From the IMG/VR virus record IMGVR_UViG_3300030430_004681, positions 1 through 27,417 of that record: DNA of 27,417 nucleotides. One strand, 5' to 3'. The translations under genes were made by a program, and so were the position numbers. Positions 1-27,417 of this stretch are shown piece after piece. The stretch is from a virus. The notes under the pieces are model-generated. The model worked only from the letters and a program-made list of their open reading frames with translations, was not told where the DNA came from and searched no databases. Numbering within the stretch: position 1 is the first letter of the stretch; each line of letters starts with the position of its first letter.

Positions 1-563
1 GATCGACCCTGCAAGCCTATGACTTTCTTTTCTGAATCGTAAATTGGTATTACCAGTCTATTTTCTCTACCAACGACTGTCTTATCGTTTATCTCACGAA
101 CAGTGTCATAGAAGTTTTCGGCATAAGAAAAACGATGCCACAAAGACTCTGGTACTTTTCGTTGTTTCAATACCTGTATCGCTTCATGATCAGGCGGTAA
201 GTCGCTAATCTGTTTACCAATACTCTCTCTAAATACGGGCTTCTTGAATGAGAAGTCAGGCTCAGGTGTATTTGGTTTGCCTGTTTGGCCACCGCGATAG
301 TTCTCAAGTCGATACTCTTTGTGCAACGCAGGTGAAATGTTTTTCAGCATATTTGCTAGAGTTGTGCCGTAATCACAGTTATGACATTTGTAATACATGT
401 GGTTCGCCTTCTTGTAGAAGTAACCACGTGCCTTCTTTTTGTTTCGCTGCGAATCACCACATATTGGGCATCTACAGTTTGCTAGATCATCTTTCTTCCA
501 TGAGAACAATTCAAGGTGTGGTGAAAGACGATTGACATATGATTTATCAATGAAAATAGACAT
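1..563 (-). CDS. gp61: T4 gp61-like DNA primase, N-terminal part (cut by window edge)
   Basis: The frame is open from an ATG at 561-563 to base 1, so about 187 N-terminal residues are visible and the C-terminus lies outside. The start reads MSIFIDKSYVNRLSPHLELF. A zinc-ribbon follows near residues 29-65: Cys-Arg-Cys-Pro-Ile-Cys-Gly-Asp, then Lys-Cys-His-Asn-Cys-Asp, like the zinc-binding head of T4 gp61-type primases. The region after it (Gln-Val-Leu-Lys-Gln-Arg-Lys-Val-Pro and the basic-aliphatic strand Arg-Leu-Val-Ile-Pro-Ile-Tyr-Asp) resembles the start of the catalytic core. In T4 this enzyme makes RNA primers with helicase gp41 at the fork. A sigma70-like promoter sits directly upstream, and no Shine-Dalgarno sequence is visible before the ATG. 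Family assignment is from remembered cyanophage and T4-like homologs. Confidence 0.85.
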   Translation of the reverse strand, partial: MSIFIDKSYVNRLSPHLELFSWKKDDLANCRCPICGDSQRNKKKARGYFYKKANHMYYKCHNCDYGTTLANMLKNISPALHKEYRLENYRGGQTGKPNTPEPDFSFKKPVFRESIGKQISDLPPDHEAIQVLKQRKVPESLWHRFSYAENFYDTVREINDKTVVGRENRLVIPIYDSEKKVIGLQGR

Positions 564-647: not shown

Positions 648-815
648 TTATTTTTTCTCTTCATCGTTGCTTTTTGTTGGCAACGGAGATAAATACTCTA
701 CCTTTTTTTTGCTTCGACTTGGTGTTAGAAAAGAACCCAACCAACCGTACTTACGAAGGGCTAGAAAAGCAGCACCAGCAAGAACATAAAAAATTATGAT
801 GAAAGGCCAGTTTAG
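648..815 (-). CDS. -1-frame extension of the lipoprotein gene: membrane segment plus basic tail
   Basis: Reading on from the nine-A run of the lipoprotein gene in the -1 frame gives 55 open codons ending at TAA 648-650. They encode LNWPFIIIFYVLAGAAFLAL, a clear membrane segment, then RKYGWLGSF and a basic tail with SKKKVEY and a charged end. No ATG, GTG or TTG precedes the membrane segment in this frame after the in-frame upstream stop, so independent initiation is unlikely. The junction contains A AAA AAC (815-821 on the plus strand), a textbook -1 slippery heptamer, placed directly before the zero-frame TAA. The fused product (about 124 residues) would have an N-terminal lipoprotein signal and a C-terminal membrane helix, the plan of unimolecular spanins such as phage T1 gp11. 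A missing A in the assembly would give the same picture. Confidence 0.55.
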   Translation of the reverse strand, partial: LNWPFIIIFYVLAGAAFLALRKYGWLGSFLTPSRSKKKVEYLSPLPTKSNDEEKK

Positions 816-1021
816 TTTTTTTTTGCGTCTTCAAAGTCGAGTAAAGTTTGATAACCCAAGTTGTCACCAGCACCCACGATCCCGACGTTGACTAATTCGG
901 AAGCAGAGTCCATGGTTTCAATAATTTGTGGCTGACCGTCGATGCCAATATCAACAAATGGTTGCTTGACACTTTTGACGCTTGCACATCCCACTAATAA
1001 CATAACAAAAATATATCTCAT
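812..1021 (-). CDS. small lipoprotein, probable o-spanin or first part of a u-spanin
   Basis: The 69-residue product begins MRYIFVMLLVGCASVKS. A hydrophobic stretch ends in a lipobox Leu-Val-Gly-Cys with the lipid-carrying Cys at residue 12, so it should be an outer-membrane lipoprotein. The remaining 57 residues are polar with no clear fold. The ATG overlaps the stop of the upstream membrane-protein gene by four bases, as in i-spanin/o-spanin pairs, and a holin-like gene comes just before. Spanins join the inner and outer membranes and complete lysis in Gram-negative hosts. The gene ends GAC GCA AAA AAA AAC TAA, where a -1 shift would append a membrane helix. The lipoprotein is clear; the spanin role is inferred from architecture and neighbours. 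Confidence 0.7.
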   Translation of the reverse strand: MRYIFVMLLVGCASVKSVKQPFVDIGIDGQPQIIETMDSASELVNVGIVGAGDNLGYQTLLDFEDAKKN

Positions 1022-1257
1022 CTCGGTACCCTTATTCTTGGCGTTTCTGTTCGCTCTAAATGCTCTTTGAGTTTTTTTCTCTTCTCTCTTTTTTCAAGAA
1101 GCATAGGCCTCTCGGCTTTCTTCATCATTCTATCATGAAAACGTTCTTTCATTTTAGTCTCACCCATCTTATGCCCAGCGAGCAAACCGAGTATCAAACC
1201 GATGAAGAAAATACAAATTCTTTTCAATACAATGTTTTTATGTTTACATTTTGCCAT
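1018..1257 (-). CDS. small membrane protein with basic helical tail, possible i-spanin
   Basis: The 79-residue product has a basic start (MAKCKHKNIVLKR), one membrane segment (ICIFFIGLILGLLAG, residues 14-28) and a long, strongly charged, probably helical tail rich in Lys, Arg and Glu. An inner-membrane protein with a helical outer domain next to a small lipoprotein fits the i-spanin/o-spanin arrangement. However, the tail is very basic, so by the positive-inside rule it could equally stay in the cytoplasm. Its ATG overlaps the stop of the holin-like gene (TAATG) and its own stop overlaps the lipoprotein ATG (ATGA), so the three are surely co-translated. The i-spanin call is tentative. Confidence 0.6.
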   Translation of the reverse strand: MAKCKHKNIVLKRICIFFIGLILGLLAGHKMGETKMKERFHDRMMKKAERPMLLEKREKRKKLKEHLERTETPRIRVPR

Positions 1258-1703
1258 TACTTACCTCTCACGGCCGTGCCGAAGTAGAATCCTACGATAG
1301 TGACTAGAATTTGTCTGTTCTCTTCAGTATACAGATATCCTTCGACAGGTGTGTAGGTTCTTACTTTTTCTTCCCCAAATAACCCGAGAAGATCCCATGG
1401 CTTGTAGACGGTAGACTCATGCTCAACCACTGTGGTGACTCCATCGCTGTAAGCGATGATGAAAGGTGCGAGAATAGTACCAAACATGATACACAAAACA
1501 ATGAATCGACGCACAAGTTTACCCGCATCAATGGAGACACGATTCACCGCAGCATCAGCGTTTTCGTTTTCTTTCTCTGCGATTCCCATTGCCATCTTGA
1601 ATCGCTCTTGATCCTGGGCACGACGCTCAGCCATAGCCTTGAATAAGAAACCAGTTGCAGAACCAGTTAGAAGTGATAAAAAGTCAGGTGATAAAAAATC
1701 CAT
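1257..1703 (-). CDS. holin-like membrane protein
   Basis: The product has 148 residues. It starts with a hydrophobic amphipathic stretch (MDFLSPDFLSLLTGSATGFL), has a charged helical middle (residues 25-65), then a membrane segment RRFIVLCIMFGTILAPFIIA near residues 65-84. A polar loop and a final hydrophobic segment ILVTIVGFYFGTAVRG follow. Two to three membrane-associated segments with a short basic C-terminus recall three-TM holins of the gene-transfer-agent type, which open the inner membrane at lysis. It is the first gene of an overlapping trio with a small membrane protein and a lipoprotein, which supports a lysis role. A good ribosome site (GGGAGA) lies before the ATG. The exact holin family is not certain. 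Confidence 0.6.
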   Translation of the reverse strand: MDFLSPDFLSLLTGSATGFLFKAMAERRAQDQERFKMAMGIAEKENENADAAVNRVSIDAGKLVRRFIVLCIMFGTILAPFIIAYSDGVTTVVEHESTVYKPWDLLGLFGEEKVRTYTPVEGYLYTEENRQILVTIVGFYFGTAVRGK

Positions 1704-5388: not shown

Positions 5389-6855
5389 TTATTTATACTT
5401 TTCTTTCTCCAACCTAGCGTAATACATTGGCTCACCAGGCGTTTGACTCATTCGTTTCACCGCTGAGGCTGTGGTACCCTCAAGATCATCATCCTGATAC
5501 TCTTCATTGTATTTGTTCCACTTCTCTTCATAATAAACATTTTTCCAGTTTTCGCCAAATGCTCGTCTGTATTTATCTCTTTTTTCTTCCAAAGAATTCG
5601 AAAGGCTAACATTGTTTTCTTCACAGAACTTCTCGAACATCTGATTTTTCCACTCAGAAACTTGATTGATCCACTTTTTAGATTTTGCCTGCTCTAAACA
5701 AAGGCTAGCAAAAACATCACCATTGTCTCTCATCTTCATCAACTTTTTCATTTTAGTTGATTCATCGATTCTCGAACTTTCTATTCTTCGAACCGTGAGA
5801 CTTTTGTTGAAGTGTTTACCGACTGTCTCCTCTAGATAATTTTCAAACTTATCATCATAACTCTCACCGGTAAGTTTGAATTGCTGCCCCCTGAGATTAG
5901 TCCAATTTGTCTTATCTGTGATATAGTCTAAGAATTTTGAAACAATATTTTCACCTGTCGCTTTTTCAATGCCCTCTGTCCCTGGTGATGCGTTGACCTC
6001 TAGTGTATACTCTTCCCCATCAGAAGTTTGAAGAATGTCTACACCAACAAAGATGCCATCTGTGGCAGAGGCAGAGTCAATGGCAAGTTGCTTTGTTTGA
6101 TCATCTATGTTTTCGGGGGTCACATCACCATTGAGTGAAAAGTTGCTTCTGAAGTCACCGTCTTTACTTTGCCTTCTCATCGCAGCGATGACCTCATCAC
6201 CCAAAACAATCACACGAAGATCTTTCTCATAAGGTATCTTTTCTTGAAGTAGAAGATCAATCTTCGGATCTACTTTTTGTAGTGTTTGCACAACAGAAAC
6301 TAAAGAGTTCGGGCTATCAACTAACATAACACCCGCACCGCCAGCACCCTGATCTGTTTTTAAGACAAGAGGAAACTGTGATCCAACCATATTCACATAT
6401 TGTTGAATATTCTTTATCTTCTTTGGTGTGCCATCATCTTGAACCTCAGCACTTGGTAGAGATACTGTTTTTGGTGTTGGTATGCCTTGCTCTTTGAGTC
6501 TCAGATAGCACCGATATTTTTGATCACAAACCTCAAGACATGAGAGGTTATTGACACAGAAAAATCCTGCTCTCTCTAGATCAGAAACGATTGACGATGC
6601 TTTGGTGCTATCGAGAACAGAACTTCGACACACAAAAACAGTATCATCTGGTGTGACCTCAAAAGGCTCAACTTCTTCTGAACCAATTAAATATCTATCA
6701 TCTAGATTTTCATACCGCAGAGTTTCAGGAAAAAGAATCTCACAATCAATACCAGATTTTTCACACTCCTCGAGTATTCTCGAAGCCGTTCTCATGAACA
6801 ACGGCTCACCTTCTGGTGCGTTGTTTTTTCTTTCTGAAAGTACGACGATACGCAT
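5389..6855 (-). CDS. RimK-like ATP-grasp ligase with extra C-terminal domain
   Basis: The 488-residue product has an N-terminal domain (MRIVVLSERKNNAPEGEPLF). An ATP-grasp core spans about residues 105-315: the nucleotide-binding strand PLVLKTDQGAGGAGVML (162-178), LLLQEKI (201-207), and the metal-binding end Leu-Glu-Val-Asn-Ala-Ser-Pro-Gly (285-292). This is the signature of RimK-type ligases, which use ATP to join an amino acid (glutamate in RimK) to a protein or small-molecule carboxylate. Phage versions are common in marine myoviruses, with unknown substrates. Residues 320-488 form an extra charged, Lys/Glu-rich helical domain that RimK itself lacks. No capsid tag is present at the N-terminus. 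The ATG has only a weak ribosome site close by, so coupling to the upstream gene is likely. Confidence 0.8.
   Translation of the reverse strand: MRIVVLSERKNNAPEGEPLFMRTASRILEECEKSGIDCEILFPETLRYENLDDRYLIGSEEVEPFEVTPDDTVFVCRSSVLDSTKASSIVSDLERAGFFCVNNLSCLEVCDQKYRCYLRLKEQGIPTPKTVSLPSAEVQDDGTPKKIKNIQQYVNMVGSQFPLVLKTDQGAGGAGVMLVDSPNSLVSVVQTLQKVDPKIDLLLQEKIPYEKDLRVIVLGDEVIAAMRRQSKDGDFRSNFSLNGDVTPENIDDQTKQLAIDSASATDGIFVGVDILQTSDGEEYTLEVNASPGTEGIEKATGENIVSKFLDYITDKTNWTNLRGQQFKLTGESYDDKFENYLEETVGKHFNKSLTVRRIESSRIDESTKMKKLMKMRDNGDVFASLCLEQAKSKKWINQVSEWKNQMFEKFCEENNVSLSNSLEEKRDKYRRAFGENWKNVYYEEKWNKYNEEYQDDDLEGTTASAVKRMSQTPGEPMYYARLEKEKYK
5390..5397 (-). promoter_or_regulatory. T4-type late promoter box TATAAATA
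   Basis: A perfect TATAAATA on the minus strand lies 18 bases before the ATG at 5372, just after the stop of the ATP-grasp gene. T4 late promoters consist of this box at -10, and the predicted start leaves a very short leader carrying the GAGG ribosome site. Confidence 0.65.
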
Positions 6856-13734: not shown

Positions 13735-14025
13735 TCAAGCATCTCCCATCAACCATCCAAAGAAACCACCCGACTTCTTGGGCTGTGCAGCATCTTTGTC
13801 GTCAAGAAGAATTGTATCTTCCTCATTACGACCCTGAATAATTGCGAAGTGTTTTGGCAAATCTTCTTTGTTTTTCTCGGCACGCTTGGCTGCACGCTCA
13901 AGTTCTTTATCAGTCAAAAGAAGCATCACGACATCATCGCCGCTACCATCACCATCGCTAACATGGGTTGCGAAAAAATATTCTTTGTCTGCTGCTCTGT
14001 GTGCGTTTTTGTTTTCAACTTTCAT
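13735..14025 (-). CDS. hypothetical protein, 96 aa
   Basis: The product begins MKVENKNAHRAADKEYFFAT, has an Asp/Gly-rich loop (HVSDGDGSGDDVV), a charged helix (LTDKELERAAKRAEKNKEDL), and ends with an amphipathic peptide (KKSGGFFGWLMGDA). The Asp/Gly loop is not an EF-hand by spacing. Its start overlaps the stop of the lysozyme gene by four bases, so the two are co-expressed. The family is unknown. Confidence 0.6.
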   Translation of the reverse strand: MKVENKNAHRAADKEYFFATHVSDGDGSGDDVVMLLLTDKELERAAKRAEKNKEDLPKHFAIIQGRNEEDTILLDDKDAAQPKKSGGFFGWLMGDA

Positions 14026-14492
14026 TTCAATTCATCCTTTACTTTCTTTACTTTGTTCCAAAACTTTTTAGTTGATTCTTTTTTGTAGCCGTTGGGGCCG
14101 CCGTTGTGATTACGAGAAAAATCTTCCTCTGTAGGCTCTCGACCGAGACGCTCTTCTGTGGTGTAAAGATCTGCGTAGCACAAAACGACCTCTGTTGCAT
14201 ACTCACAATCATAACACGAGGAATAGTCACCGTCAAGTTGGCAATGATTTTTTGCATCAAGCCAATAGGAATAATGAATCTGATAACAGCCAATTGCATC
14301 GCCGTTGTCGCCAACTGCATCTGGATTGTCATTTGATTCTACGATTCGAATGGCACGAAGAAGTTTTTCTAAGTCAATCTGTTTTTCTGTGGCATGACCA
14401 ATCTTTGGCGTGTCTGTGGCTACCATCAAACGTGGCCAAAGAAGATAACCTGTCGTTGCCAGAACAACCGTCGCAAAAATACTGTTCTTCAA
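14022..14492 (-). CDS. invertebrate-type (destabilase-like) lysozyme, probable endolysin
   Basis: The TTG start at 14490-14492 has AAGGA at good distance. Residues 1-23 (MKNSIFATVVLATTGYLLWP) form a signal peptide or signal anchor. The catalytic region has Ile-Val-Glu-Ser (Glu52), then GDAIGCYQIHYSYW (64-77) and, near the end, Arg-Asn-His-Asn-Gly-Gly-Pro-Asn-Gly-Tyr (127-136) followed by KKESTKKFWNKV. 'HNGGPxG' plus 'SxxxYWxxV' is the hallmark of i-type lysozymes (destabilase family). Five cysteines (69, 84, 93, 96, 105) suit a disulfide-bonded periplasmic enzyme. It would cut peptidoglycan at lysis. Asp65 is the likely second catalytic residue. It lies 13 kb from the holin-like gene and is divergent from the kinase gene. 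Confidence 0.75.
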   Translation of the reverse strand: MKNSIFATVVLATTGYLLWPRLMVATDTPKIGHATEKQIDLEKLLRAIRIVESNDNPDAVGDNGDAIGCYQIHYSYWLDAKNHCQLDGDYSSCYDCEYATEVVLCYADLYTTEERLGREPTEEDFSRNHNGGPNGYKKESTKKFWNKVKKVKDELK

Positions 14493-14503
14493 TGTGTATC
14501 CTT

Positions 14504-14511
14504 TCTAAATA
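14504..14511 (+). promoter_or_regulatory. late promoter-like box TCTAAATA for the plus-strand pair
   Basis: TCTAAATA differs by one base from the T4 late box and stands 17 bases before the kinase ATG, the same distance as the two clear TATAAATA promoters. It lies in the 35-base gap between the divergent lysozyme and kinase genes. Confidence 0.5.
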
Positions 14512-14527
14512 CTATGGCGAGGAAAAT

Positions 14528-15802
14528 ATGTTTTCATTCAAAGATTTCGATAAGCAAAGTCTACAAGAAAAATTAGTAGTTGTCAACAAAGGAAAGAAGG
14601 AAGGTCAAGTTATTTTCCTTGCTGGCGGGGCAGGCTCTGGCAAAGGTTTCGCCATTGACAATTTCATCGCTGCCGAATCATACAAAGTTGTCAACCCAGA
14701 TGATCTCAAAGTATTGGCACTGAGTCTTGGTAAAAAGAAGCCAGATGAGTACCCAGAGTATGCAGATCTTGACATGAAGAATCCAGAAGATGTGGCAAAA
14801 CTACATGCCATTATCAAGGGTAAAGGATTGTTTCCGAAAAAGATGTCCATGCTCATGAAGAAAACCGAATCTGGTATGCTACCCAATCTTCTTATCGACA
14901 AAACGATGAAAGATGTTGATGATTTTTATGAATTTTTACCAACTTTATTGCGAGCAGGATACAAGCCACAAAATATTCACTTGATTTGGGTTCTCACAGA
15001 CTATCGCATGGCGCTTGTGCAGAATAGAAAAAGAGCCAGAACTGTGCCAGACAAGATTCTTATCAAGACGCACAAAGGTGCAGCGAGAACCATGCGTGAC
15101 TATTTCATACGAAACTACCCGCCAGATATCAACGGAGAGTTTTATGTCATCATTGGTGGCCCACAGAACACCGTATTCTTTTCGAACAACAAAGGCAAAG
15201 CACTGAATGGTTCTGATGGTTTACCTTTTGCCATCAAAGACTTTCAATACTTCAAACTCAAAAACGCAGGTAGATCAAACATCGATAAAGATTCAGAGAT
15301 TGCAAGAAAGGTTTATGATCTAGTAGATCGCTATGCACCTGATTTGAGTGAACAAATGATTCCTTTATCTCCTATCGCTATCGCCCCAATGGTTGGCCCA
15401 GTTTTAGATCGATACGAGTTAGAAGATTTCAATTTTAGAGCGAAAGCGAAAGAAGCAGCGGTAGAAGATCGTCTGCGAAACCGTCCGATTTTCCCACCAG
15501 AGGCAGACACAGATGGAGATGGGCAACTAAGTGTCTACGAATTCGTCTTATATGTTGATATTATGGCACAAGAACTTGGTATATCTGATGATTTAAAGGC
15601 GGCCGTTATTGCGTTGCTAACTGGTCGCCCACCAGGACCAAGAGGCTTGCTGGCTTTGGCGAATGCATCGAATCGCAAAAAACTTAAAAAACTACTCAAA
15701 AGAATCAACAAACGATTTAATGGGGGTAGAGGGTTAGGTTTACCATTTGAGATTCCAACTGAACTACCTGAACTACCAAGTATAAGAGATATTTTTAAGT
15801 AA
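14528..15802 (+). CDS. zeta-like P-loop kinase fused to an EF-hand region, with capsid-targeting-like tag
   Basis: I chose the ATG at 14528 (MFSFKDFDKQSLQEKLVVVN) because GAGG lies just upstream and a late box precedes it; longer in-frame extensions cross the divergent lysozyme gene. The 424-residue product carries Leu-Gln-Glu/Lys at residue 14, fitting the prohead-protease rule. A Walker A motif Gly-Gly-Ala-Gly-Ser-Gly-Lys-Gly follows at 33-40, as in zeta-toxin-like kinases. The region to about residue 250 completes a P-loop fold (HLIWVLTDYRMALVQNRKRA looks like the lid with Arg residues). Residues 327-338 are a perfect EF-hand loop, Asp-Thr-Asp-Gly-Asp-Gly-Gln-Leu-Ser-Val-Tyr-Glu. The basic end follows (NRKKLKKLLKRINKRF). 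It opens a two-gene plus-strand unit. Substrate unknown. Confidence 0.8.
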   Translation: MFSFKDFDKQSLQEKLVVVNKGKKEGQVIFLAGGAGSGKGFAIDNFIAAESYKVVNPDDLKVLALSLGKKKPDEYPEYADLDMKNPEDVAKLHAIIKGKGLFPKKMSMLMKKTESGMLPNLLIDKTMKDVDDFYEFLPTLLRAGYKPQNIHLIWVLTDYRMALVQNRKRARTVPDKILIKTHKGAARTMRDYFIRNYPPDINGEFYVIIGGPQNTVFFSNNKGKALNGSDGLPFAIKDFQYFKLKNAGRSNIDKDSEIARKVYDLVDRYAPDLSEQMIPLSPIAIAPMVGPVLDRYELEDFNFRAKAKEAAVEDRLRNRPIFPPEADTDGDGQLSVYEFVLYVDIMAQELGISDDLKAAVIALLTGRPPGPRGLLALANASNRKKLKKLLKRINKRFNGGRGLGLPFEIPTELPELPSIRDIFK

Positions 15803-22962: not shown

Positions 22963-23937
22963 TTATCCTCTAGATGGTGCTTCATCGCCGAGTGGTGGTT
23001 CTTCTGGTCGTTGTGGTGGTGATGCAGGAGGTGGTGGTAAGTTTGGATTGACTCCTGCTTGCTTGAATATGTCTTTCAAATTTGAAGGAATTTCAAAATC
23101 AATAGAGGTCACACTAGAGACATATTGAACAAACTCTATCATACCAGCGTGTCCTCTAGGAATACTATTCACGAAACGATCTTCAAGACCTGCATCTCTA
23201 GCAATGCCATATAAACTAATTAAGGTAAAGTAATCATCATCTGGATCCGAAGGATCGCCCGATGCCAGAACAACCCCGTCATTGTTGTAGTCAAATACTT
23301 GAACAATTTCAAAATAGGCATCAAGACCAAATGCTCTAATGAACCCTTGTGGAAAATAACTATAAAACCCTGCTCCCCACCATTGCCAGAAAGAATTTCT
23401 TGCTTGACTAAATGTTATATTTTCAAAGTCAATACTACCAGCAGGATTGTTTGAGTCATCCCGTTCAATTAAAGTTCCCCCAAATCCGTAGATAAAAGTC
23501 CAAGATGAGGGTTCGGGTAGATCAAAACCATACTCTTGATTTATTTGTTCCCAGTTTTCTCTATAATATGCAGCAGACATTTGTGGAAGGTTTTCATAAC
23601 CATTTTCTGCACCCCACTCCAAAAATGTTCTGGCAACAAGACCCATAAGTGCGCCGTCAGTCGGACCAATAATGCCATCACCGTTGAAGTCAAATGTGTC
23701 TAATAGGGGTTGTGTGGCATTGAAATAACTACGACCACCAAAAAATCCATTATAACCTGTATTTGTCGCACCAAAATTATCAAGACCACCAAGGAATGTA
23801 TTACCATTCACATAATTGTAATAGTAATAATAAAAACTTTCTTTACCCTCTCGCTCAAAGTCCATCAATAGTCGTAGACGTTCAAGATCACCCGGACCTT
23901 GGTACTCTTCTTTTAAAAAACGCTTGAAACTTTTCAT
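22963..23937 (-). CDS. dockerin/EF-hand paralog 4 of the tandem array, most diverged, 324 aa
   Basis: The start MKSFKRFLKEEYQGPGDLER is almost identical to the T4 internal-protein tag in pattern (T4 MKTYQEFIAE), with Leu-Lys-Glu at residues 8-10. Two calcium loops are seen: Asp-Phe-Asn-Gly-Asp-Gly-Ile-Ile-Gly-Pro-Thr-Asp (83-94) and a second, longer Asp-Tyr-Asn-Asn-Asp-Gly (216-221) with an acidic insert (DPSDPDDDYF). The body is rich in Tyr, Phe, Trp, Asn and Gly (ESFYYYYYNYVNGNTFLGGL). The tail is Pro-rich (NLPPPPASPPQRPEEPPLGD). It overlaps its upstream paralog by four bases. Role unknown; perhaps a calcium-dependent binding protein carried in or on the virion. Confidence 0.65.
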   Translation of the reverse strand: MKSFKRFLKEEYQGPGDLERLRLLMDFEREGKESFYYYYYNYVNGNTFLGGLDNFGATNTGYNGFFGGRSYFNATQPLLDTFDFNGDGIIGPTDGALMGLVARTFLEWGAENGYENLPQMSAAYYRENWEQINQEYGFDLPEPSSWTFIYGFGGTLIERDDSNNPAGSIDFENITFSQARNSFWQWWGAGFYSYFPQGFIRAFGLDAYFEIVQVFDYNNDGVVLASGDPSDPDDDYFTLISLYGIARDAGLEDRFVNSIPRGHAGMIEFVQYVSSVTSIDFEIPSNLKDIFKQAGVNPNLPPPPASPPQRPEEPPLGDEAPSRG

Positions 23938-24019
23938 CCTAGACCAATCTCTGGTCGTGGTGCTTGTGATTGAGGAGTTTCTTCTGGTGGAGGTGGGGGT
24001 CCAGTTGGGTAATCAGGGG
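23912..24019 (-). repeat. gene-junction repeat, copy A
   Basis: About 108 bases spanning the Pro-rich end of paralog 3 and the tag start of paralog 4. They are nearly identical to copy B at 24826-24935, apart from a few substitutions and a 3-base insertion. A shorter part (tag codons only) recurs at 26640-26668, and the tail part, diverged, at 25755-25815. Such repeats are natural sites for duplication or loss of whole genes by recombination. Confidence 0.7.
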
Positions 24020-24851
24020 CAATATTTGCCAATAAATCATCAATAATGTCAAATCCATCAGGAATGTAATCCTCTAATGATTTATCACCAAACATAAGAA
24101 CATTGCTCGCAAACTCTTGGAAGTTCTCTGCCGGGACTATATCACCGGGAAGATCATACACATTGTATCCCATATCTTGAAAATAATAAATTATAAAGTA
24201 TAGTGCTAATACATCTCCTTGAAGACTGCCAACATTATCCCCGCCGCCAATTCTGTAATCAAGAGTGCCGTCGCCATTGAAATCAAACAATCTAATCGCT
24301 TCTTCATAAAACTCTGGATGAAACTGTTGGAAAAACTCAGGACCATAAATTCCAAATACACTAGACAACCAACTTGTTATTCCCAACAAAGCACCAAGTG
24401 AATCTCCAGATACAGGATCCGGATTATCCAGATCAGACAGCGGAGATTCTTCGGGTCTTTCAATAAACCCGTTTGGATTTGGAAAATTCACGCCGTAGAC
24501 TTCACTGTAATACTCCCAGTTTTCTAGGTAGTCGGCAGCAGTCATAGGTGGTGGAATCTCTCCAGTCTCTTCATAAATTTGAAATGCTATTTCGGCAATC
24601 TGAAAAATGAGTTCTTGATCGTTATCACCGATTGTTCCATCCCCATTATAATCGTACATATCAAGCATAAACTGAGGCATATTGAGCATTCTTACAAAAC
24701 CAAGCCAACTTTGATAGCCACCTAACGTACCGGGAGCAGTATTACTAGCACTGCCATTGTTACCCAAAGTGTTTTTGGCTCTGAACCACCAAGCAAAATC
24801 AGATATTCCCCCCTGCTGTTGTTCATTTAAAAAACGCTTGAAACTTTTCAT
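23934..24851 (-). CDS. dockerin/EF-hand paralog 3 of the tandem array, 305 aa
   Basis: The start MKSFKRFLNEQQQGGISDFA has Leu-Asn-Glu/Gln at residue 10. The first calcium loop is Asp-Tyr-Asn-Gly-Asp-Gly-Thr-Ile-Gly-Asp-Asn-Asp (67-78), followed by the helix QELIFQIAEIAFQIYEETGE and a paralog-shared block (AADYLENWEYYSEVYGVNFP). A second, looser loop (Asp-Phe-Asn-Gly-Asp-Gly-Thr-Leu-Asp-Tyr) comes near residue 190. The tail is Pro/Glu-rich (YPTGPPPPPEETPQSQAPRP). It is most similar to paralog 2, including at DNA level around the gene junction. No signal peptide. Function unknown. Confidence 0.65.
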   Translation of the reverse strand: MKSFKRFLNEQQQGGISDFAWWFRAKNTLGNNGSASNTAPGTLGGYQSWLGFVRMLNMPQFMLDMYDYNGDGTIGDNDQELIFQIAEIAFQIYEETGEIPPPMTAADYLENWEYYSEVYGVNFPNPNGFIERPEESPLSDLDNPDPVSGDSLGALLGITSWLSSVFGIYGPEFFQQFHPEFYEEAIRLFDFNGDGTLDYRIGGGDNVGSLQGDVLALYFIIYYFQDMGYNVYDLPGDIVPAENFQEFASNVLMFGDKSLEDYIPDGFDIIDDLLANIAPDYPTGPPPPPEETPQSQAPRPEIGLG

Positions 24852-24935
24852 CCTAGACCACCAATCTCTGGTCGTGGTGCTTGTGCCTGTGGAGTTTCCT
24901 CTGGTGGAGGTGGGGGTCCAGTTGGGTAATCAGGG
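24826..24935 (-). repeat. gene-junction repeat, copy B
   Basis: Direct repeat of copy A, spanning the end of paralog 2 and the start of paralog 3. The tag codons (aaaaaacgcttgaaactttt on the plus strand) and the Pro-tail codons are the conserved parts. The distance between copies A and B is one gene length (about 914 bases), as expected from tandem duplication. Confidence 0.7.
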
Positions 24936-25756
24936 ACAATATCAAATAATGCTGCCAGTGCTTCGGGACCAAAGTAATCCTGAAAACTATCTGGAAGGTA
25001 ATCTATCAGAGACTTATCAGAGAACATTGCAATGTTATTAATAAATTCTTGGAATTCGTCTGCCGGGACTGCCGGAGCATCAATACCGTATCCCATTTCT
25101 TGGAAATAATATCTCATAAATGTCCACACAATATATTCTGCTCCGCTTCCGCCATCAAAATCAATGACACCATCTCCATTGTAATCGTAAAGTCTTAAGA
25201 CTTCATTGTAGACATCTGGAAATACCTCCCGATAAAAATCTTCATTCGATAAAAATTGTCCGTACCACCAAGACAAAAGTCCCTCTAATCCTAGAACAGT
25301 TGTTGCATCATCACCGGGAAAGAGCGTATCGGGTCTATCTTCAAAAGGACCGGGTACTTCAACAAAGCCATTCGGATCTGGGAAATCTACACCATAAAGA
25401 ACCCTGTAATATGCCCAGTTCTGACGATAATCTGCCGGGGTCATAATCGGAGGTAATTCCCCTGTTTCCTCATAAATTTCAAACGCAAGTTCGGCAATCT
25501 GAAAAATAAGTTCTTGATCATTGTCCCCAATAATACCATCACCATTCCAGTCATACAAATCAAGCATAAACTGGGGCATATTGATCATATTTGGATGTCC
25601 ACCCCAAGTTGCAAATCCACCTAACACACCGGGAATAGCATTGTTTGACTCTCCATTTCCGCCCCAAGCCCCTTTGGCTATAAACCAAAAAGCGAACACT
25701 GGATCAAATCCCTGTTGCTGTTCTTGTTCTTTTAAATATTGTAAGAAACTTTTCAA
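24848..25756 (-). CDS. dockerin/EF-hand paralog 2 of the tandem array, 302 aa
   Basis: The start MKSFLQYLKEQEQQQGFDPV has Leu-Lys-Glu/Gln at residue 10. Calcium loop 1 is Asp-Trp-Asn-Gly-Asp-Gly-Ile-Ile-Gly-Asp-Asn-Asp, followed by QELIFQIAELAFEIYEETGE. The shared block ADYRQNWAYYRVLYGVDFPD comes next. Loop 2 is Asp-Tyr-Asn-Gly-Asp-Gly-Val-Ile-Asp-Phe-Asp with a Gly-rich continuation. The Pro/Glu tail is almost the same as in paralog 3. Unlike loop 1, loop 2 lacks a clear acidic residue at position 12, so it may bind calcium weakly. The protein overlaps both neighbours by four bases. Confidence 0.65.
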   Translation of the reverse strand: MKSFLQYLKEQEQQQGFDPVFAFWFIAKGAWGGNGESNNAIPGVLGGFATWGGHPNMINMPQFMLDLYDWNGDGIIGDNDQELIFQIAELAFEIYEETGELPPIMTPADYRQNWAYYRVLYGVDFPDPNGFVEVPGPFEDRPDTLFPGDDATTVLGLEGLLSWWYGQFLSNEDFYREVFPDVYNEVLRLYDYNGDGVIDFDGGSGAEYIVWTFMRYYFQEMGYGIDAPAVPADEFQEFINNIAMFSDKSLIDYLPDSFQDYFGPEALAALFDIVPDYPTGPPPPPEETPQAQAPRPEIGGLG

Positions 25757-26667
25757 CCCAATCCTCCGATTTGTGGTTGTGGTGCTTGTGCCTGTGGGGT
25801 TTCTTCTGGTGGCTTGGGAGCCTGACCATAGGTGGGATCGTAGTATTGATAATCACCTTCGGGATACTCACCGAATCTTTCATAGTAAAGATCAGCAAGA
25901 CTTACATCACCGAACATTGAGAAATTATAAAATACGTCTTTTAATTCAGACGGCGATGGCATTTGATCTACTCTAACGTCCACACCTTTTCTAAGAGAGA
26001 GAATGTAAAGCATTTGCCATATTCCACCATCACCGCCAGCAGCACCACCCAACCCATATCCGGTGATTCGACCATCTCCGTCAAGATCATACACGGCAAA
26101 GATTTGATCAATCAGTTCTTGACCATAGTATTCGATGAGTTCTTGCTTATCGAGAACTTCATTCAAATTTCTCCAAAAACTTTGTGCGCCAACCCATCCA
26201 AAAATTGAATTCCCCTCAGTGTCACTTGTGACTAATGAGTCAGGAAATTCAGAGTCGCTATTTGGATAGCCTGCGTAGCCATTTGGATCAGGGAAATCTT
26301 TTCCGTAAAGGACTCTGTAATATGCCCAATTTTGTTGATAATCTGCCGCAGTGATGACCGGAGGAAACTCACCAGTCTCGTTATAAATTTCAATTGCAAG
26401 TTGACCAATTTCTCGAATCAAAGCCTGATCATTATATCCAATCAGACCATCACCATTGTAGTCAAACATATCAAGCATTGCTTGAGGTAATCCGTACATT
26501 CTTTGTAAACCCGGAAATGCACCCCAAGTGTTAAACGCACCTAAAGAACCGAGAGAATTGGGAAATGGCGCACCAAATCTGCCGTTTACTAACCCAAACC
26601 AAAAGTAATAAAGATTAACCCCTTGTTGCTGTTCTTCTTCACTTAAAAAACGCTTGAAACTTTTCAT
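25753..26667 (-). CDS. dockerin/EF-hand paralog 1 of the tandem array, 304 aa
   Basis: The start MKSFKRFLSEEEQQQGVNLY has Leu-Ser-Glu/Glu at residue 10. Loop 1 is Asp-Tyr-Asn-Gly-Asp-Gly-Leu-Ile-Gly-Tyr-Asn-Asp, followed by QALIREIGQLAIEIYNETGE. The shared block is AADYQQNWAYYRVLYGKDFP. Loop 2 is Asp-Leu-Asp-Gly-Asp-Gly-Arg-Ile-Thr-Gly-Tyr-Gly. The tail (PPEETPQAQAPQPQIGGLG) is a shorter version of the paralogs' tail. The aromatic, Gly-rich N-terminal region (YYFWFGLVNGRFGAPFPNSL) is shared in style with the others. It follows the Glu-rich PEP-CTERM-like gene with a four-base overlap. Confidence 0.65.
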   Translation of the reverse strand: MKSFKRFLSEEEQQQGVNLYYFWFGLVNGRFGAPFPNSLGSLGAFNTWGAFPGLQRMYGLPQAMLDMFDYNGDGLIGYNDQALIREIGQLAIEIYNETGEFPPVITAADYQQNWAYYRVLYGKDFPDPNGYAGYPNSDSEFPDSLVTSDTEGNSIFGWVGAQSFWRNLNEVLDKQELIEYYGQELIDQIFAVYDLDGDGRITGYGLGGAAGGDGGIWQMLYILSLRKGVDVRVDQMPSPSELKDVFYNFSMFGDVSLADLYYERFGEYPEGDYQYYDPTYGQAPKPPEETPQAQAPQPQIGGLG

Positions 26668-27417
26668 TGTTTTCTCTTTCTACCCAACTCAAAAAGAATC
26701 ACTAGAATAATTATCCCGATAAGTGACCCTGGCTCTGGAATAGGAACACCTGCCATTTGTGTTGGCGGTGTGGCATCCTCTGATGTTGATCCTTGATCTT
26801 CTTCAACGACTACGGGTCTCATAACTGGATCGCTTGGTATGTAATCTTCAACTATGATCTGTGGTGCGTCTGGTTGTCTTGAGTTCATGATCACAGGTAT
26901 TGACTCTATTAGATTTGGTGTCGATTCAATGATCCAATCATCTACTTCGCCTGCCGCGATATCTTCAAGCACCAAAGCCAGTATCTCTGGATCTGTTGTT
27001 ATGGGTAGATCCATCGTCATCTCTTGTGGTTGCGGAGAGGACTCAGACTCTTCCTCTTTTTCTTCTTCCTCTTCTTCTTCCTCTTCTTCTTCCTCTTCTT
27101 CTTCCTCTTCTTCCTCTTCTTCCTCTTCTTCCTCTTCGCTCTCTTCTTCGTTTTCTTCTTCTTCGGATGGTTGTTCGTCTTGTGGTGTTTTCTTACCAGC
27201 ACCAGCAGCCGCAGCGTCTCCTACAACGCCGCTCATATCAAGACCAGAACTTGAACCTGAACCTGTGTCAGATCCTGAACCGCTTCCAGATGCCATACTA
27301 ACAGAGCCGTCAAGACCACCAGCATCACCAGCACCTCCGCCACCACCACCTGATCCTGGGATGTTTCCATTCATCAAGTCTTGAACAGACTCATTCAGAC
27401 CCATGATTTCTTCGATT
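26664..27417 (-). CDS. Glu-rich protein with PEP-CTERM-like C-terminal tail (start possibly outside window)
   Basis: From the ATG at 27402-27404 the product has 246 residues: MGLNESVQDLMNGNIPGSGG, a Gly/Ser-rich region to about residue 72, a long nearly pure Glu tract (about 78-121) and a mixed Asp/Pro/Val-rich region. The C-terminal tail is Val-Pro-Ile-Pro-Glu-Pro-Gly-Ser, a hydrophobic helix LIGIIILVILFELG and the basic end RKRKQ. The tail has the three parts of a PEP-CTERM signal (Pro-Glu-Pro, membrane helix, Arg/Lys cluster), which exosortases process in many Gram-negatives. Leu-Asn-Glu/Ser at residues 3-5 also fits the prohead-protease rule. The frame stays open upstream (Ile-Glu-Glu-Ile) to the window edge and the ribosome site is poor, so the true start may lie beyond. 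Function unknown. Confidence 0.6.
   Translation of the reverse strand, partial: IEEIMGLNESVQDLMNGNIPGSGGGGGGAGDAGGLDGSVSMASGSGSGSDTGSGSSSGLDMSGVVGDAAAAGAGKKTPQDEQPSEEEENEEESEEEEEEEEEEEEEEEEEEEEEEEEEEKEEESESSPQPQEMTMDLPITTDPEILALVLEDIAAGEVDDWIIESTPNLIESIPVIMNSRQPDAPQIIVEDYIPSDPVMRPVVVEEDQGSTSEDATPPTQMAGVPIPEPGSLIGIIILVILFELGRKRKQ
27039..27170 (-). repeat. low-complexity Glu-codon repeat (GAA/GAG tract)
   Basis: On the plus strand the tract is made of ctt, cct and ttc units repeated many times, with a period of mostly 9 and then 6 bases; it encodes about 40 Glu with few interruptions. Such a tract can expand or shrink in whole codons by slippage without breaking the frame. Confidence 0.85.

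Follow-up and report, generated by a model that had tools for sequence, protein, structure and literature searches.

Spanins and recoded phage genes

A unimolecular spanin (u-spanin) is defined by a lipid anchor at one end and a membrane helix at the other; T1 gp11 is the example that has been tested, and none of the 58 u-spanins surveyed has a periplasmic cysteine (PMC6139136). T1 gp11 has an N-terminal lipobox, a single C-terminal helix, a beta-rich periplasmic domain and a holin-like gene next to it. In two-component spanins, such as Rz/Rz1 of lambda and PseT.2/PseT.3 of T4, a short lipoprotein of the outer-membrane type is specified by a gene whose start overlaps an upstream gene for a protein with an N-terminal helix and a charged segment. 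A periplasmic cysteine for covalent dimers is common, but not universal, in the o-spanins of such pairs. An origin of u-spanins from o-spanins by C-terminal extension has been proposed, and was called speculative in the same survey because no u-spanin resembled any o-spanin (PMC6139136).

Programmed -1 frameshifting is found in E. coli dnaX and in IS911, where an A AAA AAG heptamer is preceded by a Shine-Dalgarno (SD)-like sequence (GGAG in IS911) and followed by a stem-loop. Experimentally supported SD-like stimulators lie 6–17 nt upstream of the slip site and structures usually begin 5–8 nt downstream; the former are optional in known cases, the latter are not always found in prokaryotes, and the A AAA AAC heptamer shifts at low efficiency in E. 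coli (PMC4066793). Transcriptional slippage in bacteria is also known to occur at runs of nine A (PMC5009743). In phages, the tail assembly chaperone G/GT of lambda is the product of a conserved -1 frameshift that yields a short and a C-terminally extended protein. Recoding has been tied to lysis in the RNA phage MS2, where a frame change cuts coat synthesis short and brings the ribosome to the overlapping lysis gene, without a fusion lysis protein being made (PMC10885494).

Here we describe a group of uncultured marine phages that appears to make two versions of a lysis protein from one gene. In the absence of expression data the function is inferred, and we consider it highly probable that this is a lysis gene with programmed -1 recoding, producing a short lipoprotein and, by the shift, a u-spanin. 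The evidence is drawn from sequences, which show a gene split between two frames and kept so among relatives, most of them with stimulatory signals, a tail under selection, and a shifted product homologous to uninterrupted proteins of spanin layout. The protein class is known, as is the type of recoding, and it is their combination that appears to be new. A literature search retrieved no report of a recoded spanin; most subscription papers and preprints lay outside its coverage, and absence is unproven.

The proposed recoded gene and its neighbors

The window (the whole stretch of viral DNA that was analyzed, 27,417 nt) carries a closely spaced minus-strand cassette in the order putative holin, i-spanin-like gene, lipoprotein. 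The first gene (1257..1703, minus strand) codes for a putative holin-like membrane protein of 148 aa with the C-terminus IVGFYFGTAVRGK, which is conserved at about 80 loci and matched only PHROGs of unknown function. The second (1018..1257, minus strand; 79 aa) specifies an N-terminal membrane helix followed by a highly charged segment ending in RVPR, has a weak PHROG match to an Rz-like spanin (E 0.08), and its stop overlaps the start of the lipoprotein gene by 4 bases. Neither of these proteins nor the shifted product gave a confident match to curated holin or spanin families in PHROG, Pfam or NCBIfam, so the names 'holin' and 'i-spanin' are inferred from layout. Beyond the lipoprotein lies a DNA-primase-like ORF (563..3, minus strand), named from a zinc-finger-like sequence and without a Pfam match. 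At four other loci (L033, L036, L037 and L039), a thermonuclease-like ORF (NRKSCYNFRVTEIVKVLDGDTIDV...; a sequence-based name) is situated between the holin and i-spanin-like genes, at about +11 to +448 downstream of the holin.

The 0-frame lipoprotein (812..1021, minus strand; 69 aa) was present in the ORF list and has homologs in other contigs. It shows a signal peptide with the lipobox VGC at residues 10–12, followed by a short periplasmic segment with a GAGDNLGYQT motif; the GC and GAGD..LG..T residues are invariant among the aligned homologs. As an earlier, sequence-only reading of this DNA had stated, the gene ends GCA AAA AAA AAC TAA, with the stop directly past the slip site, and this was confirmed on the minus strand. 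The slip site (815..824, minus strand) consists of nine A (824..816) and a C, and includes A AAA AAC at 821..815 as well as A AAA AAA. A heptamer of the form X XXY YYZ in the 0 frame near the stop is present, both in the window (A AAA AAC UAA) and in relatives (A AAA AAA), and in the window's 27.4 kb this is the only run of at least nine A or T.

The -1 frame extension (648..816, minus strand) reads KKK-LNWPFIIIFYVLAGAAFLALRKYGWLGSF... up to a TAA stop at 650..648, and specifies a membrane helix, LNWPFIIIFYVLAGAAFLA, with a mean hydropathy of 1.95 in its best 19-residue window, followed by a basic tail. The claim that this frame is open but lacks a start of its own held up, as its earliest ATG, GTG or TTG is a TTG located 80 nt beyond the slip codon, past the helix core. 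The extension can be reached solely via a -1 shift or by insertion of one A in the mRNA. The whole recoded gene (648..1021, minus strand) has a predicted shifted product of 124 aa, with an N-terminal lipobox and a C-terminal membrane helix, in which the lipobox cysteine is the sole cysteine and none is periplasmic; DFEDAKKKLNWPF is an example of a peptide that would span the junction. The linker between lipid anchor and helix is about 60 residues long, and would need to be nearly extended to bridge a periplasm.

Relatives sharing the split

A protein scan gave 13 loci, and scans using alignments, the holin and the i-spanin-like gene raised this to 18 distinct lipoprotein genes in the window's lineage. 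In all, 19 further distinct homologous genes, from two diverged lineages, retain the split. Many loci are near-copies that fall into about four subfamilies plus a second lineage, and there are fewer independent observations than the gene counts. Within the window's lineage, the 0 frame encodes a short lipoprotein, the A-run lies at the same codons (..KK), the 0-frame stop follows 1–14 codons on, and the -1 frame always holds a membrane helix and basic tail; slippery site and helix are kept in all aligned homologs. The i-spanin-like gene accompanies the lipoprotein across this lineage and is absent from L169 of the sister lineage. That second lineage consists of L169, L170 and L095, the last being the same contig as L168; its holin is 61% identical, and its genes are split in the same way, at an A9 and with a tail of their own. 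A run of nine A occurs in the window, L001, L095, L169 and L170, and a run of seven in the 16 other genes.

Frames that join at a homopolymer raise the question of a sequencing or assembly error, or of a decaying pseudogene, and a run of ten A would have fused the two frames. No relative with such a fusion was found when these were looked for, and the 16 A7 genes are split at the same codons. Locus L001, on a separate contig, has the A9 of the window and a tail that differs at 8 positions (5 synonymous, 3 nonsynonymous), which makes an isolated assembly error unlikely. With the split at matched codons in many separate contigs, along with the stimulatory signals and tail selection described below, error or decay can hardly account for the arrangement; assembly error was ruled out by the relatives.

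Querying annotated phages with the DNA of this region returned chance matches only, protein searches of annotated phages with the lipoprotein or the L105 spanin gave no relevant match, and a scan of a genome collection for the lipoprotein found no relatives, and hence no clue to the host. Relatives of the holin were detected in P8625, C75C1, CRP-2, HTVC031P and an uncultured MedDCM phage, and the neighboring genes inspected in these were not spanin-like.

Frameshift signals

Judged by sequence, the A7 relatives carry a classic bacterial -1 frameshift signal. The heptamer A AAA AAA is present in all 16 genes. An SD-like motif precedes it, in 15 genes as GGAG at a distance of exactly 11 nt and in the remaining one as AGGA at 12 nt, and is kept even though the surrounding codons vary between subfamilies. 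A stem-loop begins 5–7 nt downstream of the run in 16/16 genes, with predicted energies between -15 and -25 kcal/mol, where the locus background is near -8, ranking in the top 0–6% of each locus. In a MAFFT alignment based on sequence only, two pairs of the stem show compensatory change in both partners, and every slid register does worse than the given one; pairing is 80% in this alignment because the register of one subfamily is offset by one. Codon usage elsewhere in these genes includes AAA and AAG for lysine at 16:15, and TCA for only 7 of 74 serines, yet the site always reads NNA AAA AAA. The arrangement is like that of dnaX and IS911 in its A-run heptamer, upstream SD-like sequence and downstream stem-loop, and differs in the heptamer (A AAA AAA rather than A AAA AAG) and in the gene and purpose served. 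In the A7 relatives the shift is most likely ribosomal, given these three elements, with no expression data to support it.

The window differs from this pattern in lacking both stimulators. No SD-like motif is present 6–17 nt upstream of the slip site in the window or L001, and no significant structure 5–8 nt past it (z -1.3 for the window, at the 32nd percentile of the contig's own background). The earlier statement that no strong hairpin is visible is accordingly correct for the window but does not extend to the A7 relatives. Both the window and L001 have an A9 run with the stop immediately behind it. With such a run and neither SD nor stem, RNA-polymerase slippage is as plausible in the window as ribosomal frameshifting, so the proposed -1 frameshift, although supported by the signals of the A7 genes, cannot be assigned to the ribosome from the window alone.

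For the window and L095, L169 and L170, a frame change by RNA polymerase slipping on the A9 and adding one A is a serious contender, to which we give slightly less than even weight. Runs of this length are documented to behave in this way in bacteria (PMC5009743), the run is conserved in L001 and in the three genes of the second lineage, and the A9 genes of the window's lineage are without the SD and stem found in all A7 genes. Yet ribosomal slip heptamers are likewise present within the A9, nothing is known of the host polymerase or its slippage, and L169 and L170 have a hairpin that directly abuts the run. A second strong hairpin, GAGCAGGTCAG...TTGGCCTGCT, occurs about 40 nt past the A9, at about 344..420 of L170 and at the equivalent positions of L169.

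The -1 frame could instead specify a separate small membrane protein, with its own start or translated by re-initiation past the lipoprotein stop, which its ORF overlaps or abuts. Some relatives have a GTG at the start of the helix, and L169 has an upstream TTG, but no start codon is common to all: none precedes the helix in the window or L001, and in L170 there are stops just upstream and, again, no start ahead of the helix. The SD-like motif is spaced for the slip site and not for a start, and the continuous relatives described below join both parts in one chain. We regard a separate protein as very improbable, and independent initiation of the tail was rejected for want of a shared start codon.

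Selection on the tail

Selection was assessed in sister pairs downstream of the 0-frame stop, a region that could be coding in the -1 frame only. The pooled pairs have 23 synonymous changes over 117.5 sites and 28 nonsynonymous changes over 455.5 sites (pS 0.196, pN 0.061, Fisher p 2e-5). Taken singly, the pairs window/L001 (p 0.013) and L169/L170 (p 0.005) showed the effect, while the remaining pairs were short and individually inconclusive. The counts are small and two sister pairs supply most of the signal. By this measure of substitution the tail is under purifying selection, and the region 648–811, for which a lack of coding conservation would have counted against the original proposal, is conserved in the -1 frame.

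Continuous relatives and the origin of the split

About 40 more distant holin loci were examined, and nearly all those that were readable have, as the next gene, one unbroken ORF that encodes both a lipobox and a C-terminal membrane helix. Some 30 diverged relatives have such a continuous lipobox-plus-TM protein after the holin-like gene, mostly 0–24 bp downstream of it, with no i-spanin-like gene in between. Some have a GAGD.LGYET motif in common with the lipoprotein. Between the fused product of the split locus L008 and the uninterrupted L105 protein, the alignment is nearly end-to-end and passes through the shift point (36% identity, E 8e-16, BLASTP), and profiles of the shifted and continuous proteins match with a probability of 98% (E 2.9e-13, HHalign). 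The fused product of the window aligns chiefly in its lipoprotein part, its tail having diverged. The window tail alone gave no BLASTP alignment to that of L095, and the whole products align weakly (E 1e-7). The C-terminal helix and basic tail are in the -1 frame of every homolog and in one chain with the lipoprotein part in the roughly 30 continuous relatives; their joining in the window is inferred.

In the holin tree, all 12 frameshift rows fall into one clade (support 99/96), with one change between states. We infer that the frameshift arose once from a continuous gene, the tree being midpoint-rooted and the direction of change likewise inferred.

Probable functions of the two products

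Most ribosomes would stop just past the A-run, giving a short outer-membrane lipoprotein, while some would enter the -1 frame there and add the C-terminal membrane helix and basic tail, whether by ribosomal frameshifting or, in the window, by RNA-polymerase slippage. The longer protein would be held by its lipid in the outer membrane and by its helix in the inner one, and may act as a unimolecular spanin that bridges and finally fuses both membranes at lysis. That the shift occurs, its rate, the topology and the role in lysis are all inferred. Since a lipid anchor and a membrane helix at opposite ends define a u-spanin, and since the shifted product aligns across the shift site with uninterrupted lipobox-plus-TM proteins, its most likely identity is that of a recoded u-spanin. 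The u-spanin layout proposed in the sequence-only reading is strengthened by these uninterrupted homologs, which directly follow the same holin-like gene.

Like T1 gp11, the predicted product has an N-terminal lipobox, a single C-terminal helix, a holin-like gene adjacent and no periplasmic cysteine; unlike it, the product is recoded and not encoded in a single frame, has a linker of only some 60 residues, and shows no detectable sequence family match. Compared with Rz/Rz1 and PseT.2/PseT.3, the 0-frame product is a similar short lipoprotein with a start overlapping the same kind of upstream gene, but neither protein has a periplasmic cysteine (those of the i-spanin-like protein are only before or within its helix), and the lipoprotein gene also encodes a membrane-anchored extension. 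As in lambda G/GT, short and C-terminally extended products would result from a conserved phage -1 frameshift, which here would affect a probable lysis gene and alter topology by adding a membrane helix. In contrast to MS2, where recoding is also linked to lysis, the shift proposed here would yield a fusion lysis protein.

The i-spanin-like gene overlaps the lipoprotein start, and so the short form may also act as an o-spanin in a two-component pair, a role inferred from layout. The same overlap is compatible with another function for the longer form, as a regulator and not a fusogen: an o-spanin form tethered to the inner membrane that titrates the i-spanin and delays lysis, which the short linker might also suit. 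We think this unlikely, as in the continuous relatives no i-spanin-like gene intervenes and this protein alone follows the holin-like gene, so the ancestral role was probably that of sole spanin, and L169 is frameshifted in the absence of an i-spanin-like gene there. The original task of the short form may then have been to set the u-spanin dose or to restrain the u-spanin, as the L169 case also suggests.

Returning to the u-spanin interpretation, a fuller version of it would have one gene supply both spanin types, an o-spanin working with the overlapping i-spanin and a recoded u-spanin, as two membrane-fusion systems in a set ratio. The clade would then be a living intermediate between unimolecular and two-component spanins, in which the frame-changing machinery switches between ribosome and RNA polymerase. 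This we offer tentatively, as somewhat less likely to be right than wrong.

The clade links o- and u-spanins through one gene that combines the two layouts and has uninterrupted u-spanin-like genes among its homologs, which makes the evolutionary connection testable. It also suggests the reverse of the proposed route, with the u-spanin first, followed by a truncated lipoprotein plus a new i-spanin. Lysis would join the few functions that phages control by recoding, and a spanin behind a frameshift may have gone unnoticed in some phages recorded as lacking one.

Other features of the contig

The DNA polymerase of the window shares 48–49% identity with those of T4-like cyanophages. A likely endolysin-type muralytic enzyme is encoded at 14022..14492 (minus strand; Pfam Destabilase, E 1e-10, above the cut-off; SLT, E 0.003, below it), far from the holin/spanin cassette; Destabilase is an animal-type lysozyme family. 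A large ORF on the strand opposite to its neighbors (14195..15802, plus strand) has a zeta-toxin-like kinase domain (Pfam E 2e-6), and a RimK-like ATP-grasp ligase (5389..6855, minus strand; Pfam E 6e-39) is also found in this T4-like phage contig. An ORF at 26664..27404 (minus strand), with no Pfam match above the cut-off, has a long poly-glutamate stretch and a C-terminus, PEPGSLIGIIILVILFELGRKRKQ, resembling a PEP-CTERM sorting signal. Four tandem paralogs (22963..26667, minus strand) start with MKSF.(R/Q)(F/Y)L.E.. and contain DYNGDG(I/L)IG calcium-loop-like repeats with a weak EF-hand match.
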